This document shows, one piece after another, positions 2,637 to 20,948 of a stretch of 24,489 nucleotides of DNA. Position 1 is the first letter of the stretch, and the number at the start of each line of letters is the position of its first letter. The notes beneath the pieces were generated by a model. That model made no database searches, was not told where the DNA came from, and worked only from the letters and a program-made list of their open reading frames with translations. Both the position numbers and the translations under genes were made by a program. Where the stretch lies: positions 1 through 24,489 of IMG/VR virus record IMGVR_UViG_3300003886_000077. One strand, given 5' to 3'. This DNA is from a virus.

Positions 2637-2855
2637 ATGGCTACGAGGATCATGCGAAAGATGCACGACCGGCCCGAACCTGGTCAGAGCATTGTTGTGT
2701 TTACCGACGATGATCGAGAATTGGAATGCACCGCGACCATGATGTGGATTGAAGATTGGGCGGGAATCATGATCTACCACAAACGCAAAGCGATCGACGA
2801 ATCCAAGGCTGTTGGCTGGATGCCTGCCACTGATCCACGAAGACTGAAACCATGA
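2637..2855 (+). CDS. Hypothetical small protein, 72 aa
   Basis: The frame can be opened at a TTG overlapping the DHH gene, but the ATG at 2637 has GGAG (2627-2630) at the right distance and gives a sensible N terminus, so it is chosen. The product is a small mixed alpha/beta protein with an acidic patch (VVFTDDDRELECTATM) and a basic C terminus. It ends in an ATGA overlap with the RusA gene. Not recognised. Its place next to a resolvase suggests an early accessory role. Confidence 0.65.
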   Translation: MATRIMRKMHDRPEPGQSIVVFTDDDRELECTATMMWIEDWAGIMIYHKRKAIDESKAVGWMPATDPRRLKP

Positions 2856-3193
2856 TCGAACTGCCTTGGCCACCGACCGTGAATCACTACTACACGGTAT
2901 CGCGTAATCGAAAAATACTAAGCGCGCGCGGCAGAGCCTACAAAAATGAATGTTACTGGATAATGGTAGAAGCGAAGACCACAAAGCTCACAAGCGGTAA
3001 ATTTGCTATCGAAATTACTTGTTTCCCGCCAGATCGTAGGCGTCGCGATTTGGACAATTTGCTCAAGCCAATCCTCGATAGCCTGACTGACTATGGAGCA
3101 ATTACCGATGACAGCGATATCGATGAGATACGAATACGTCGGGCGAAAATCGAAAAACCTGGATATATTATTGTGGAGGTGAATTGTGTCTAA
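2852..3193 (+). CDS. rusA: RusA-family Holliday junction resolvase
   Basis: A 113-aa protein of the RusA family, which cuts Holliday junctions symmetrically as a dimer with Mg2+. The N terminus LPWPPTVNHYY is the usual RusA opening. The catalytic acidic cluster is visible: D66 and D68 in RRDLDNLLKPILDSL, K72 in the position of the E. coli RusA catalytic lysine, and D86/D87 in GAITDDSDI. Length matches E. coli RusA (120 aa). It starts in an ATGA overlap and is followed by the HTH gene with 8 nt overlap. In lambdoid phages RusA sits in the nin region, just before the late regulator and late promoter, as here. It probably resolves recombination intermediates before packaging. Confidence 0.95.
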   Translation: MIELPWPPTVNHYYTVSRNRKILSARGRAYKNECYWIMVEAKTTKLTSGKFAIEITCFPPDRRRRDLDNLLKPILDSLTDYGAITDDSDIDEIRIRRAKIEKPGYIIVEVNCV

Positions 3194-4676: not shown

Positions 4677-5588
4677 GTGTCTTTTCTTAAACGCACTTGG
4701 ACCCGCAAGCCGCCTTTCGGGGTAGGCCTTAATCAAGGCCATTGGCTTGCGCCGTTCATCGAGGGTTTCTACATCTTCAATGAGCGGTCCGGCATTCGCC
4801 TGAACGATTTATCCAGACACGCCCGGCATGTCGAGTTCAACGGAGCCGACCCAACGAATGTTGACTGGTTCGATGCCGTCTCCGGTTTGGCGAATTACGA
4901 TGGCCCTCTGACGGATCGCGATGGCGGTATGAGTTCCGCTTCGGCCGGTACTGGCGACGAGTTCGTGCAGGTATCAGGAACGACTTTAGAGATTGACAGC
5001 ACGCGCCCGCACGGCATTCTGTTTCGTGGTGCGGGCGGGTCAGACACTGAATCAATCGGTGTTGTCTGTGCGATTCCGAGAAGCAACAATGCCGAGGCAA
5101 TTCAGATTTTGATGGATAGCGGCAATCGTGGATCATTTGGTTATTCGTCAGGAAACACGACAGATGGCGTCGATGCGATAGACGATGGTGGTGTGTTTAG
5201 CGGTGCGCTACTGACGTACCACGACTATGCCGTAGTGTTCGACGGCAACTCGCCTACAGCGACATCGAGTTATCGATTCATGCACGATAGAGTGCTGCGG
5301 GCGACAAATACCGCTTTCGCTTATGCCGGGCATACGAGCGCCAGTGGTTTCTATATACGCAACAGCACCGGCAGTTTTGACTTTTCCGGCGAGTACAGCT
5401 ACCTGCTGATTGTGCAGGGTATTGCGTTATCGAATGAGCAGGTGGCCGAGATTCAGCGCAATCCGTGGCAGTTATGCGAGCCACGTATTCAGATACTGCC
5501 GACTTTCGTGGCGGCAGCAGGTGGTGGACTTAGTGTTCCGGTAGCAATGAACTCATATAGGCAGCGCAATCAATTCGGTGTAGGCTAA
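4677..5588 (+). CDS. LamG/concanavalin A-like lectin-fold protein
   Basis: A 303-aa protein starting at GTG one base after the previous stop. The body (residues about 20-280) has the strand pattern of a LamG/ConA-like jelly roll: GFYIFNERSG with LNDLSRHARH near the start, repeated beta strands in the middle, and the ending LSNEQVAEIQRNPWQL, which is a well-known closing motif of phage and bacterial LamG-domain proteins. Such domains bind glycans or decorate capsids and fibres. An Ala/Gly-rich linker precedes a short basic tail. It may be a head decoration or accessory fibre; the position before terminase is unusual for a receptor-binding gene of a P22-type phage. Confidence 0.75.
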   Translation: MSFLKRTWTRKPPFGVGLNQGHWLAPFIEGFYIFNERSGIRLNDLSRHARHVEFNGADPTNVDWFDAVSGLANYDGPLTDRDGGMSSASAGTGDEFVQVSGTTLEIDSTRPHGILFRGAGGSDTESIGVVCAIPRSNNAEAIQILMDSGNRGSFGYSSGNTTDGVDAIDDGGVFSGALLTYHDYAVVFDGNSPTATSSYRFMHDRVLRATNTAFAYAGHTSASGFYIRNSTGSFDFSGEYSYLLIVQGIALSNEQVAEIQRNPWQLCEPRIQILPTFVAAAGGGLSVPVAMNSYRQRNQFGVG

Positions 5589-5591
5589 GTT

Positions 5592-6965
5592 ATGTATCTA
5601 AGACAATCCACAGCGCAAACAATACGATTTGGTCCGTTTCTGGACGCCACAGACGGCGTAACAGAAGAAGCGGCTCTGACCATAGCTCAAGCCGACCGCC
5701 AGATAAGCAAGGATGGTGCTGCATATGCCCAATCGTCTACGATCGGAAGCTCTGCCCACGATTCACAGGGTAATTATTCAACGACCCTTAGTGCAACCGA
5801 TACAGATACGATTGGAGAAATGAAACTGTATGTGTCTGTTGCTGGCGCATTGCCAGTTTGGGAGAAATGGTTCGTACTGGAAGAATCAATCTATGACGGT
5901 CTGTTCGCCGCCGGCTCAACCTATACCACCCAGACCGGCGATAGTTTTGCCCGACTAGGCGTACCGGCAGGGGCCAGTGTTTCAGCAGATGTTCTAACTG
6001 CGCAGAACGATCTGGACATTATAACGGGTGCCGATGGCGCATTGTTTGATGCAACTGCCCAGACCTCCTTGGTTGATGACGTGTGGGACGAGGTGCTTAC
6101 AGGTGCCACGCACAACATTAATAATTCTGCCGGGCGGCGCTTGCGACGGCTGTCCTCGTTAATTCTAGAAGATGGCACAGCTCAGGCTGGCACGGTTAAC
6201 ACGATTACTCTGGCAGCAGCAGAATCTGCGGTCGATGATATATTCCGTGGCGACCGAGTTGTTATTACGGAAGGCACAGGCGTTGGAGAACACGGCATTG
6301 CTATTGCTTACAACGGTACGACAAAAGTTCTTACAATGTCGCAGAATTGGGTTGTAACACCCGATGCAACCAGCGAATACCAATTACAACCTGCCGATGT
6401 CGATGTGGAAACATGGCAGCACATCCCTGTTACCGGCGATGGCGATTGGGCAGCACTAATAGCCGACACCGATGAATTGCAAGCAGATTGGGCCAATGGC
6501 GGTAGGCTCGATAATTTGCTAGATGCGATTCCGACCACAGCCATGCGAGGCACTGACGGAGTCGATACTGCAACGATGCGGGGAACTGACAACGCAGCTC
6601 TCGCGAGTATAGCGACTGAGTCTCGTTTGTCTGAACTAGACGCGGCGAACTTGCCCGCTACAACCGACAGCATTCTAGCCGATACTGCAGACATACAGCC
6701 AAACTACGCAACGTCGGCGAGCATTGCCGCTTTGAACGATATTGCAGTCGCGGACGTGTTAACCACACAAATGACCGAGAGCTATGCCGCCGATGGTGCA
6801 GCACCAACACTGGCACAAGCAATTATGCTGATTCAGCAATCCCTGGGTGATTTCGCAATATCCGGGACAACCATTACGGTTCGACAGGTCGATGGCGCTA
6901 CGACAGCCGCTACATTTACGTTAGATGATGCGACCAACCCAACGAGTTCTACCCGAGCCACGTAA
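5592..6965 (+). CDS. Repeat-containing structural protein, 457 aa
   Basis: A long, Ala/Thr/Asp-rich protein. The N-terminal 100 residues are beta-rich (YLRQSTAQTIRFGPFLDATDG). A central module around residues 145-280 contains VDDVWDEVLTGATHN and GRRLRRLSS. Residues about 310-360 carry two MRGTD repeats followed by SIATESRLSELDAANLPA, a helical pattern common in environmental phage structural genes. The C terminus (TITVRQVDGATTAATFTLDD) matches a frequent beta-hairpin ending of these proteins. The start has TAGG upstream; the stop overlaps the next ATG. Probably a virion fibre or surface protein; precise location unknown. Confidence 0.7.
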   Translation: MYLRQSTAQTIRFGPFLDATDGVTEEAALTIAQADRQISKDGAAYAQSSTIGSSAHDSQGNYSTTLSATDTDTIGEMKLYVSVAGALPVWEKWFVLEESIYDGLFAAGSTYTTQTGDSFARLGVPAGASVSADVLTAQNDLDIITGADGALFDATAQTSLVDDVWDEVLTGATHNINNSAGRRLRRLSSLILEDGTAQAGTVNTITLAAAESAVDDIFRGDRVVITEGTGVGEHGIAIAYNGTTKVLTMSQNWVVTPDATSEYQLQPADVDVETWQHIPVTGDGDWAALIADTDELQADWANGGRLDNLLDAIPTTAMRGTDGVDTATMRGTDNAALASIATESRLSELDAANLPATTDSILADTADIQPNYATSASIAALNDIAVADVLTTQMTESYAADGAAPTLAQAIMLIQQSLGDFAISGTTITVRQVDGATTAATFTLDDATNPTSSTRAT

Positions 6966-16960: not shown

Positions 16961-18243
16961 TGGCACATTCAGGACTTTTACAGCAGGCTGGCTCTCCGAA
17001 AAAGAAGCCAAGCGTATTGGCTCGTGTTGGGCAGGGCTTAATAGCTTTTGGCCGTGATGTGCCTGTGGCTCAGCTTGAGCGTGAGCAGCGCAGTAATGAG
17101 ATATTGCGCAATCAGGAGCAATTAACAGCCGGAGACGTTACCGTCCAACAGCAAGATATTAAGGCTAATCGGGACGAAGCCTTTCGCCAGCAGCAAATTC
17201 AGAGTTTGAGCCAGGTATTTGTCGGCGGTGGCGCGGATAGCCAAAAGGCGCTTGATCGACTGATGGTAATTGCGCCCGAGATTGCCGAACAACAGTATGA
17301 TCTCGCAGGAGCTCGTACAGCAGAGCAGCGCCAGAATATGACGCTACGAGCTGGCCAATTGCTCGCCGTTCCACCTGAGAAGCGTGATGCGGCTATGGAA
17401 GAAATGGCGGTCTCTATGGAGGCCGAGGGGCGTGACGCTACCGCTACTCGAAGCCTGATCGGATTGCCACCTGATGAGCAGGATGCTTCGTTGCGGTTTT
17501 TTGCCAGTGCGGGTGGTAAAGCCGCAGCGTCAAAACTCGGTCAGAGTGTAGTAACAAAAGACGCCGAGGGGAATCTTAGTTTTGCAACTCCCGTGTTAAC
17601 AGGCGATGAGGTCAGTACTCAAACTACGCCAATTGGTGGCCAGATAGTATCGCGAGGTCAGGGTGAAACGGCAGCAGAACGCCAGCAGCGTGATGTTGAC
17701 ACGGCAGGACAAAAGTCAACCGCAGTTGAGATATCAAAGCGAGATCAAGAATTTATAAATATTGGACAACGCCAAGCAGATGCTACTGCCATTATGCGGC
17801 GCGGACTACAATTGCTTGATACGATCGGAACCGGACGGCCAGAAGCTATTGCTCTTTCCGCCAAAAACTTATTTGGCATTGCCGGTGCGGATGAGACGGA
17901 GCTAAACGCTAACTTAGGAAAAGCAATTTTAAGTCAGTTGCGTGAGACTTTCGGCGCTCAATTCACCGAGAACGAAGGTAAAAGGCTGGAATCCATCGAA
18001 TCTAATTTCGGCAAGTCAACGGCCGGTAACAGGCGATTACTACAGCAGACCTTGCGACTTATGGAGCGTGACGCAAGACGCGGTATTGATATTGCTAACA
18101 GAGTTGACACGTTTGCTGCCAATGAAATACAGAATGCACTGGATTTCAGTCTTGATCCGAACAAAGTTAACGCTGTTGTCGAAAAGCCGGTCAGTGAAAT
18201 GACCGATGAAGAAATAAGGCAAGGTCTTGCCGAACAGGAATGA
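16960..18243 (+). CDS. DNA ejection protein, P22 gp20 position
   Basis: A 427-aa protein close to P22 gp20 (471 aa) in length and place. Gln/Arg/Ala-rich helices predominate; the segment LSQLRETFGAQFTENEGKRL followed by RRLLQQTLRLMERDARR is a recurring block of podoviral ejection proteins. No signal peptide or long membrane helix. The start lies in a TAATG overlap; the 3' end overlaps the next gene by 17 nt. It would leave the virion with gp7- and gp16-like proteins at infection. Confidence 0.78.
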   Translation: MAHSGLLQQAGSPKKKPSVLARVGQGLIAFGRDVPVAQLEREQRSNEILRNQEQLTAGDVTVQQQDIKANRDEAFRQQQIQSLSQVFVGGGADSQKALDRLMVIAPEIAEQQYDLAGARTAEQRQNMTLRAGQLLAVPPEKRDAAMEEMAVSMEAEGRDATATRSLIGLPPDEQDASLRFFASAGGKAAASKLGQSVVTKDAEGNLSFATPVLTGDEVSTQTTPIGGQIVSRGQGETAAERQQRDVDTAGQKSTAVEISKRDQEFINIGQRQADATAIMRRGLQLLDTIGTGRPEAIALSAKNLFGIAGADETELNANLGKAILSQLRETFGAQFTENEGKRLESIESNFGKSTAGNRRLLQQTLRLMERDARRGIDIANRVDTFAANEIQNALDFSLDPNKVNAVVEKPVSEMTDEEIRQGLAEQE

Positions 18244-19876
18244 ATTACTAGCAGAGGCTAAACGTCGCGGTTTGGTAGTTGATCGGCGTAGTGAACTGCT
18301 TGCCGAGGCGCAAAAGCGCGGTATATCCATTGCCGATGAGGTTACTCCTGAGCAACGTCAGGCGAGAATAGAAAGTCTTGAGGCTGAAAGTTCGGCATTA
18401 AGTCAGCCTGGTGCGCTGGGTATAGCTGCCCAGACCATTGGTGGCACTATAGGTGATCTTAGGGGTCTACCTGAGACCGCATTGCAGATGGCAACAGGCG
18501 GAGCGGCGACCATTGCGGGAGCGGTGGCGGCTGTTCCGGTAACGGCTTTTGATGCGCTTACTGGCGGTGATGATCCTGCTGGCGCTGGTCGTGCTGTTAT
18601 CGAGCAGTTTCAGGATGCCGGAACCTTTCAACCACGCACTGATGTTGGCCAGCGTGCGTCGTCTGCAATTGAGGCACCTTTAATGGCGGTTGATAAGTTC
18701 GCAGACACTGTTGGCGAGGTAACCGGCGATCCAGATGATGTGCTTGGAGCAACGCTTGTTAAGACTGCTATTTTAGCAGCGCCAGCATTATTCGGTATGC
18801 GCCGTGGCGGCGTTACTACGAAGTCTGCTGACGCTCCAACGCCGCGCCAACAGGTAGCGGCAAACGCAGCCGAAGAAGGTTACGTCACTACTCCATCAGT
18901 TCGTGCTGAGGCTGGCTCGGCGGGTTTGGCTGAGGGTCTTGGCGGAAAAATCAAGACTGGCCAACAAGCCATTGAAACAAATCAGGCTGTTACCAATAAG
19001 CTTGCGAGCCGTGCAGTTGGGCTACCTGATGATGTTCCTGTGACTGTTGATGTTCTGCAGGGCATACGGTCACAAGCAGGACAAGCATATGAGGCTGTTC
19101 GTGGCGTTGGTCAAGTTTTTACTGATACTGCTTTTCGCCGTGACCTGTCAGCGGCAACAGCGCGCTTTAGAAGCGCCGCAAAAGATTTTCCGGATCTTGC
19201 TAAGAGCGAGATTTTAGATATTGTCGATGGGCTCCGTGTGCCAGAGTTTGCGGCTGGTTCTGGTATTGACGCCATTGCGCTATTACGCAACAGGGCTGAT
19301 GTTGCCTTTCGTGGCGGAGACAAGTCATTAGGAAATTCGTACCGATCAGCCGCTAATGCCATAGAGGGTGTAATGGAGCGCCACTTGGCTAGGGGCGGTG
19401 ATTCTACTTTGGTTGATGGATTTCGGCAGTCTCGTCAACAAATAGCAGAAACTTATTCTGTCCAAGAGGCATTGCAGGGACGTATAACTGGCGAGGTAAA
19501 TGCCGCGAATCTTTCAGCACAGATAAAAAAGGGAAAGCCGCTTACTGGCGAGCTGCGCCAGATTGCAGATTTTGCCAATACCTTTCCATCTGTATCGAGG
19601 CTTTTCGTTGGCAAAGCGCAAGCATTCTCCCCGCTGGACCTCGGCGTTGCTGCTCTTGGATCAACGGGCGCGCTTGCTGCTGGGACTTTAGGCGCTGGGC
19701 CACTAGCTGCCTTGCCGATACTCGCGGCCGGAATAGCGCGGCCATTACTTAGAAGAGTCGCATTAAGTAATGTTGCCAGACGGTCGGGTATATCTAAAGA
19801 GAATGTCGGGGCGTCGTTAGGAGCAAAGACTGGCGTTATTGCAAGCTCAGCACTTAGCCAAGTTGCAGATCAATGA
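18227..19876 (+). CDS. DNA ejection protein, P22 gp16 position
   Basis: A 549-aa protein (P22 gp16 is 609 aa) starting at TTG with AAGG (18216-18219) 7 nt upstream. The first 33 residues hold a tandem 17-residue-spaced repeat, ELLAEAKRRGL and ELLAEAQKRGI. Two Ala/Gly-rich hydrophobic stretches follow, at about residues 75-110 and 455-500, which could enter the inner membrane. The middle is helical and basic. It would help DNA cross the envelope. Its end overlaps the opposite-strand gene by 7 nt. Confidence 0.8.
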   Translation: MPNRNELLAEAKRRGLVVDRRSELLAEAQKRGISIADEVTPEQRQARIESLEAESSALSQPGALGIAAQTIGGTIGDLRGLPETALQMATGGAATIAGAVAAVPVTAFDALTGGDDPAGAGRAVIEQFQDAGTFQPRTDVGQRASSAIEAPLMAVDKFADTVGEVTGDPDDVLGATLVKTAILAAPALFGMRRGGVTTKSADAPTPRQQVAANAAEEGYVTTPSVRAEAGSAGLAEGLGGKIKTGQQAIETNQAVTNKLASRAVGLPDDVPVTVDVLQGIRSQAGQAYEAVRGVGQVFTDTAFRRDLSAATARFRSAAKDFPDLAKSEILDIVDGLRVPEFAAGSGIDAIALLRNRADVAFRGGDKSLGNSYRSAANAIEGVMERHLARGGDSTLVDGFRQSRQQIAETYSVQEALQGRITGEVNAANLSAQIKKGKPLTGELRQIADFANTFPSVSRLFVGKAQAFSPLDLGVAALGSTGALAAGTLGAGPLAALPILAAGIARPLLRRVALSNVARRSGISKENVGASLGAKTGVIASSALSQVADQ

Positions 19877-20010
19877 CCGCGTTCTGCAAGCCAATCCGCA
19901 GCAGCAGATTCTCGCTGGTTCTTCTTATACTCTTTGTTTTCCGCAGCCCATGGTCCAAAAGCGTAAGCAATGATCAGGGCTGGTATGATTAGCCATAGTT
20001 CTATGTACAT
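19870..20010 (-). CDS. Small minus-strand membrane protein, 46 aa (moron candidate)
   Basis: Reading the minus strand from 20010 gives ATG and 46 codons to a TGA at 19870. The product opens MYIELWLIIPALIIAYAFGP, a single strong hydrophobic helix at residues 3-19, and then a charged cytoplasmic tail (ENKEYKKNQRESAAADWLAE). GGAG lies 9 nt upstream of the ATG on the minus strand (20020-20023), an excellent ribosome site. It is the only minus-strand gene in the window, convergent with and overlapping the gp16-like gene by 7 nt. P22 carries sieA and the immI genes exactly here, between gene 16 and the tailspike, so a superinfection-exclusion or host-altering role is plausible. No family is recognised. 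Confidence 0.65.
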   Translation of the reverse strand: MYIELWLIIPALIIAYAFGPWAAENKEYKKNQRESAAADWLAERGH

Positions 20011-20025
20011 TTTTAATTTCTCCAA

Positions 20026-20042
20026 TATGCTGTAATAGCATA
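20026..20042. promoter_or_regulatory. Dyad TATGCT-GTAAT-AGCATA
   Basis: Perfect 6-bp inverted repeat with a 5-bp spacer, between the minus-strand ribosome site and the -10-like TATAGT (minus, 20047-20042). It would cover the start point of a minus-strand transcript, as an operator often does. It could instead fold as a small RNA hairpin just ahead of GGAG. Confidence 0.45.
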
Positions 20043-20054
20043 CTATATATATAG
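20043..20054. promoter_or_regulatory. AT palindrome CTATATATATAG, -10 region
   Basis: A perfect 12-bp alternating AT palindrome directly next to the upstream dyad. On the minus strand it supplies TATAGT (20047-20042), a near-consensus -10 for the 46-aa gene, giving a leader of about 25 nt. No consensus -35 is present, so activation by a bound protein may be needed. Confidence 0.4.
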
Positions 20055-20056
20055 AC

Positions 20057-20085
20057 TGTACATCATTAGTGTACTGATGTATAGC
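20057..20085 (+). promoter_or_regulatory. Candidate divergent promoter for the tail genes, with dyad
   Basis: On the plus strand TGTACA (20057-20062) and TATAGC (20080-20085) are spaced 17 bp, 4 of 6 bases each to the consensus. The inverted repeat TACATCA (20059-20065) with TGATGTA (20075-20081) overlaps it and also the -35 zone of the minus-strand promoter, so one bound protein could govern both directions. A transcript from here would cover the adaptor and tailspike genes. Confidence 0.35.
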
Positions 20086-20132
20086 TCCGTGTTATTATTG
20101 AGTAACCACAATTTCCAAGGACGGAGATACGC

Positions 20133-20948
20133 ATGGCGTATAGGTTTGACCCGCCGCTGTTTGACGCTGGAAACGGTATAGACCCGGCCGATGGTGCTGA
20201 GTTGTTTTTCTTTGATTTCCAGACCAGCAATCCTAAAGTCACGTATGCGGATTTTGCCCTATTGGTCCCTAATACAGACCCGGTTGTGGCCGATTCTAAC
20301 GGCCTGTTCGGCGATATCTTTCTGGATATTAGAGCCAGCGTCACGTTACGAGACAGAAACGGCGTATTGATATACGGTGCAAAGGATATTTACCCCCCAG
20401 AGGACGCTATTTCAGCCCTTGCAGCGTCGCTTGTGAGTGTTCTGGATACGGCTGGTAACTTTACGGCGATAAACGTTGAGACGGTACTGGCTGAGATTGC
20501 CACTGGCTGGTCCAGACTTGACCGTGCCGAGACAGCGTCTGGAACCAAGACCTTTGCCGGTGCTAATATTGAAATGGCCGATAACGTCATTGGTGGCGCT
20601 TTGCTGAGAGACTATGCGATTAGTCATAACGTGATCACCAGCGCAGCCGGGGTGCTGACTGTTGATCTTGAGGACGGCAATAGTTTTGGGGTAACTCTGT
20701 CTGAAAATATCACTAGCATGGTTATCCAGAATCCTCCTGTTACTGGTCGCAAAGGTCAGTTTACGTTGACAATTACTCAAGACAATGCGGGTGGTGCGTA
20801 TACCCTAGCGCAGCCCGCATCTATCGTCTCGCCGGGCGGAACACTGCCTGTTGTTACCACCAGTAACGGTGCGATCGATGATTTTACTTATCGCACTGAC
20901 GATGGCGGGACTACATGGCTGATCGATTTCAGTCAGGCATATTCGTAA
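20133..20948 (+). CDS. Tail adaptor / spike head-binding protein, 271 aa
   Basis: The first 95 residues (YRFDPPLFDAGNGIDPADGA, then TYADFALLVPNTDPVVADSN and IRASVTLRDRNGVLIYGAKDI) match a widespread podoviral N-terminal adaptor domain that fixes fibres or spikes to the tail. A short helical linker (about 105-140) is followed by a beta-rich C-terminal part ending DDGGTTWLIDFSQAYS. GGAG lies about 8 nt upstream of the start. It lacks a receptor-binding body, so it presumably anchors the spike encoded downstream. Confidence 0.8.
   Translation: MAYRFDPPLFDAGNGIDPADGAELFFFDFQTSNPKVTYADFALLVPNTDPVVADSNGLFGDIFLDIRASVTLRDRNGVLIYGAKDIYPPEDAISALAASLVSVLDTAGNFTAINVETVLAEIATGWSRLDRAETASGTKTFAGANIEMADNVIGGALLRDYAISHNVITSAAGVLTVDLEDGNSFGVTLSENITSMVIQNPPVTGRKGQFTLTITQDNAGGAYTLAQPASIVSPGGTLPVVTTSNGAIDDFTYRTDDGGTTWLIDFSQAYS

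Follow-up and report, generated by a model that had tools for sequence, protein, structure and literature searches.

A small gene on the minus strand, lying between the third ejection-protein gene and the first tail gene of a P22-like phage, is best explained as an accessory (moron) gene at a site where environmental P22-like phages would exchange small minus-strand genes for membrane proteins. Its 46-residue product most likely acts like a very small SieA, and, by analogy, exclusion of related phages through their ejection conduit may be assigned a probability of roughly 0.4. The window, the whole stretch of DNA analysed here, is a virus record of 24,489 bases and represents a fragment of a P22-like podovirus. 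P22-family matches were obtained for its portal, coat, head-closure (gp10-like), and gp7 ejection proteins, and the gp7-family gene is followed by two further ejection-type genes, the reverse open reading frame (ORF), and a tail-fibre-type gene. Given that neither of the two further ejection-type genes has a Pfam or PHROG match, the one at 18227-19876 is called gp16-like by position and synteny; its product is 69-71% identical to proteins of the relatives L002, L003, and L004. Upstream of the packaging genes lie a DHHA1-domain (DHH-type) protein gene (1714-2610) and a RusA-like resolvase gene (2852-3193), the latter assigned by reading the sequence only. The features of the region are as follows.

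18227-19876, plus strand: third ejection-protein gene, in the position of P22 gene 16, convergent with the 46-residue gene
19870-20010, minus strand: gene for the 46-residue single-helix membrane protein, ATG at 20010 and TGA at 19872-19870
20011-20132, no strand assigned: A+T-rich divergent spacer (34% G+C) of 122 nt between the minus-strand gene and the tail gene
20020-20023, minus strand: Shine-Dalgarno GGAG, read from the sequence, 9 nt upstream of the ATG of the 46-residue gene
20026-20042, no strand assigned: perfect dyad TATGCT-gtaat-AGCATA, a possible operator
20059-20081, no strand assigned: perfect dyad TACATCA-ttagtgtac-TGATGTA, a possible operator
20133-20948, plus strand: first tail gene, in the position of P22 gene 9, with matches to tail-fibre PHROGs

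An earlier, sequence-only reading had described a single reverse gene between the gp16-like and tail genes, and this proved exact: the surrounding long ORFs with recognised functions are all on the plus strand. The frame has 46 codons from its ATG to its TGA (translation MYIELWLIIPALIIAYAFGPWAAENKEYKKNQRESAAADWLAERGH), and its last 7 nt, stop codon included, overlap the gp16-position gene (stop at 19874-19876) tail to tail. The ribosome site reported for it is present, with GGAG, a 9-nt interval, and ATG. The membrane helix and charged tail were likewise found as described, in the form of a single membrane-grade segment (Kyte-Doolittle 19-mer mean 1.84) followed by a charged C-terminal half that contains a KEYKK cluster, the predicted helix being only moderately hydrophobic. 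By the positive-inside rule, the KEYKK cluster predicts that the tail is cytoplasmic. The AlphaFold2 single-sequence model is a continuous helix over residues 5-44 (mean pLDDT 81.5), although a long helix modelled from a single sequence is weak evidence. The protein had also been called unrecognised, and searches of phages, plasmids, viral contigs, Pfam, and PHROGs returned no credible homologue. There was no PHROG match at E values up to 10, with P22 SieA as a control matching phrog_7745 (PHROG 7745, superinfection exclusion), and none of the related phages found carries the same protein.

What these relatives do carry at the junction is a comparable type of ORF. Using the gp16-like, tail, and gp10-like proteins as queries, relatives were found among both viral contigs and isolated phages. 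All 11 of the 11 junction gaps of 100-330 nt contain a hydrophobic minus-strand ORF whose end coincides with the gp16 stop or slightly overruns it; of 37 other gaps in these phages, one contains such an ORF. The associated Fisher P of 5e-10 is indicative only, since the criteria were set after the pattern had been seen. To be counted, a gap had to hold a minus-strand ORF that starts with ATG, spans 36 codons or more, includes a membrane-grade segment, and ends near or inside the end of gp16; L122 and the loci bearing HNH-like genes were left out of the count. The ORFs encode 69 aa in L003, 55 in L004, 53 in L009 and L025, 48 in L024, 47 in L027, 43 in L029, 48 in L093, 37 in L072, and 58 in L122. 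Among isolated phages, the ORF is 51-53 aa in Rhodoferax phage P26218 (L022), where it covers 17751-17912 of KP792623 on the strand opposite to the late genes, and up to 116 aa in Xanthomonas phage PBR31 (L128) if it reaches into gp16; the least secure entries in this list are L072 and the PBR31 ORF at its full length. A GGAG-type site precedes the minus-strand ATG at four loci, the window included.

The junction is not reserved for such ORFs. HNH-like minus-strand genes are found there in L012 (5445-5942), L013 (4827-5927), and L112 (3416-3916), their likeness to HNH homing endonucleases being judged from translations only, and the junction content of L013 consists of two tandem units. Because these genes also occupy the junction, it represents a general insertion site. 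In L002, L014-L018, L045, L048, L049, L053, L055, and others, the gp16-like and tail genes abut. The window ORF thus displays features of a moron at a variable insertion site, lying on the opposite strand as an extra gene that is present, replaced, or absent in relatives. Pseudoalteromonas phage H6/1 (L018) carries four small minus-strand genes between its portal and scaffold genes (4789-5478), one of which encodes a 53-aa hydrophobic protein; this interval is a second minus-strand insertion site in a relative.

To judge from their sequences, the junction membrane proteins are several unrelated families. The ORFs of L003, L004, and L122 are homologous, as are those of P26218 and PBR31, and a shuffle test gave no convincing relationship for the other junction proteins, among them that of the window. 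For L003 and L004, the minus frame has a translation score of 147 versus at most 84 in the other frames, and its differences (non-synonymous 0.34, synonymous 0.64) give the lowest ratio of the six frames. The minus frame is also the best-scoring for P26218 and PBR31, and in both pairs the signal is that of coding sequence on the minus strand. The gp16-like proteins of L002, L003, L004, and L024 are 57-71% identical to that of the window, whereas the junction contents of these five are unrelated or absent, except in the L003/L004 pair. Consequently, the junction cargo turns over faster than its neighbours, and such rapid turnover fits an exclusion gene.

The spacer is presumed to hold the minus-strand promoter of the 46-residue gene. 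No sigma-70 consensus promoter passes a scan of the spacer, and the promoter and terminator scan gave no terminator for the gene. The two perfect dyads are candidate operators, and divergent control of the minus-strand gene and the tail gene is possible; each occurs only once in the window as a perfect copy. In L004 and L009, just 12-30 nt or so separate the minus-strand ATG from the tail gene, too little for a promoter of its own in the spacer. In PBR31, two tandem G+C-rich hairpins with T runs, terminator-like on the plus strand, are located between the unannotated minus-strand ORF and the tailspike start codon (6200-6265). They would cut late transcription before the tailspike, unless the tailspike has its own promoter.

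In dinucleotide shuffles of the gap, a minus-strand ATG ORF of equal length arises with P=0.10, one of this length with a Shine-Dalgarno with P=0.016, and one with a membrane helix with P=0.009. By itself, then, the ORF is modestly better than chance and amounts to weak evidence; it becomes convincing because the same pattern recurs at the junction in relatives, and it is very probably a real gene. An alternative is that the ORF is accidental and that the spacer serves regulation (a late promoter or terminator, and the dyads). This would account for the shuffle result for length alone, for the two dyads, and for the lack of a homologue, but it is improbable. It does not explain why hydrophobic minus-strand ORFs fill every counted junction gap and almost none elsewhere, the Shine-Dalgarno preceding the window ORF, or the conservation of the coding frame in two related families. 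Also against it, the fold of the minus transcript is ordinary and no better than shuffles (z = -0.98), and the spacer has no Rfam match. Less probable still is that the gene lies on the plus strand, as a 39-aa ORF (19873-19992) whose start falls in an ATGA overlap with the gp16 stop. That coupling and a hydrophobic stretch speak for it, but its best 19-mer reaches only 1.4, it is without a ribosome site of its own, and the other junctions have no consistent plus-strand ORF.

P22 SieA is an inner-membrane protein that is sufficient to block DNA injection by P22-like phages, and escape mutations map to the C-terminal regions of gp16 and gp20 (PMC10883804). Because SieA acts on gp16 and gp20 (PMC10883804), a superinfection-exclusion role for the 46-residue protein is plausible. 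The gene would be expressed from its own minus-strand promoter before, or without, late transcription, and the protein would lodge in the inner membrane, its lysine-rich tail facing the cytoplasm. There it would interfere with how the ejection-protein conduit of related phages assembles or works, and superinfection would thereby be excluded. The late plus-strand transcript, crossing the gene as antisense, would then shut it down. Counted against exclusion via the conduit are the lack of a homologue, of SieA similarity, and of a promoter consensus, the differences from SieA in length and helix number, the moderate hydrophobicity of the helix, and the short spacers of L004 and L009.

Two other functions merit consideration, each about half as probable as exclusion and neither likely. 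The protein might be a small hydrophobic host-takeover or toxin-like peptide in the style of type I toxins, its single helix depolarising the membrane or inhibiting a host membrane protein, and its gene silenced by a late antisense transcript. Size and topology fit such a peptide, the plus-strand late operon would supply the antisense RNA, and the unrelatedness of the junction sequences could mean that function requires a membrane helix only. However, no known toxin family was matched at a reportable score, a charged tail of 25 residues is long for such toxins, and the position of the gene beside an ejection gene is left unexplained. Alternatively, the gene might be a moron with another membrane role, such as setting the time of lysis, masking a receptor, or interfering with host defence, at a junction that merely tolerates insertions. 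The HNH-like genes imply that the site accepts unrelated cargo, and the minus-strand genes between portal and scaffold in H6/1 point the same way. Yet the cargo other than HNH genes consists uniformly of small membrane ORFs, in all 11 of the counted gaps, which argues for one shared kind of function.

Lysogenic conversion, which the earlier reading had offered as an alternative to exclusion, is unsupported for the group to which the window belongs, as 20-21 related records, including more than ten of 36-45 kb, gave no match to Phage_integrase (tyrosine integrase), S24 peptidase, or Resolvase (serine recombinase). The same integrase search recovers the integrases of P22 and PBR31; HTH_3 gave two matches above the cut-off in relatives, which could be any small regulator. 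Xanthomonas phage PBR31, which has a junction membrane ORF, is reported to be temperate (PMC10975493), and Rhodoferax phage P26218 is reported to be lytic (PMC4657236); the junction slot is therefore used in both life styles. Bacterial genome contigs contained no gp16 relatives, consistent with few integrated relatives, but this carries little weight because a scan of the same collection for SieA was also empty.

More broadly, and tentatively, the gp16/tail junction may be a dedicated slot for hyperdiverse, mostly unannotated membrane micro-exclusion factors of 40-70 residues, of which sieA would be the large enterobacterial version. Such a slot would extend across environmental P22-like podoviruses, lytic ones included, with the ejection conduits of rival phages as the target, a proposal that is possible rather than likely. 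Were this so, the sieA slot would mark a niche for exclusion genes in short-tailed phages generally, limited neither to enterobacteria nor to temperate phages. Its occupants would be too small and too divergent for family searches to detect, and synteny would offer a way to many new exclusion proteins. The P26218 version is directly testable, as its host, Rhodoferax sp. IMCC26218, is cultivated.

Small inner-membrane proteins that block DNA entry have precedents. T4 Imm is a small inner-membrane exclusion protein of this kind, and HK97 gp15 can be likened to the window protein by its description as a small inner-membrane protein blocking DNA entry, although both belong to different phage types and are encoded at different genomic sites. 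The unannotated junction ORFs of PBR31 and P26218 share the slot, strand, and hydrophobic character of the window gene; their proteins are homologous to one another but not to the window protein. In P22-like prophages, the known sieA genes examined occupy the interval from gene 16 to gene 9, and identity among three SieA types is only about 25% (PMC10883804). The earlier placement of the window gene at the P22 sieA/immI site was correct in part: the sieA slot (by synteny) and strand stand, while mnt, arc, and ant do not, the gap between the gp16-like and tail genes being only 256 nt. In P22, a minus-strand sieA follows 22 nt after the gene 16 stop, and gene 9 comes later, whereas the window gene overlaps that stop by 7 nt. 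The window protein is far smaller than SieA, as had been stated (46 versus 164 residues in P22 and 212 in type B, within a range of about 160-210), and has one predicted transmembrane helix where SieA has three or four, three of them in the P22 protein. The cytoplasmic-side motif FxRYPxEAxxFNK of SieA is absent from it. A loose FG...NKEY resemblance to type A SieA after the helix (P about 0.05) was rejected as a likeness to the SieA C terminus, given that type B SieA aligns at a different place, and membership in the SieA family was rejected on length, helix number, motif, and similarity. Both are nonetheless membrane proteins, that of the window by prediction, encoded on the minus strand in the same gene 16/tail slot, and by analogy the 46-residue protein, though outside the SieA family, may work like SieA.
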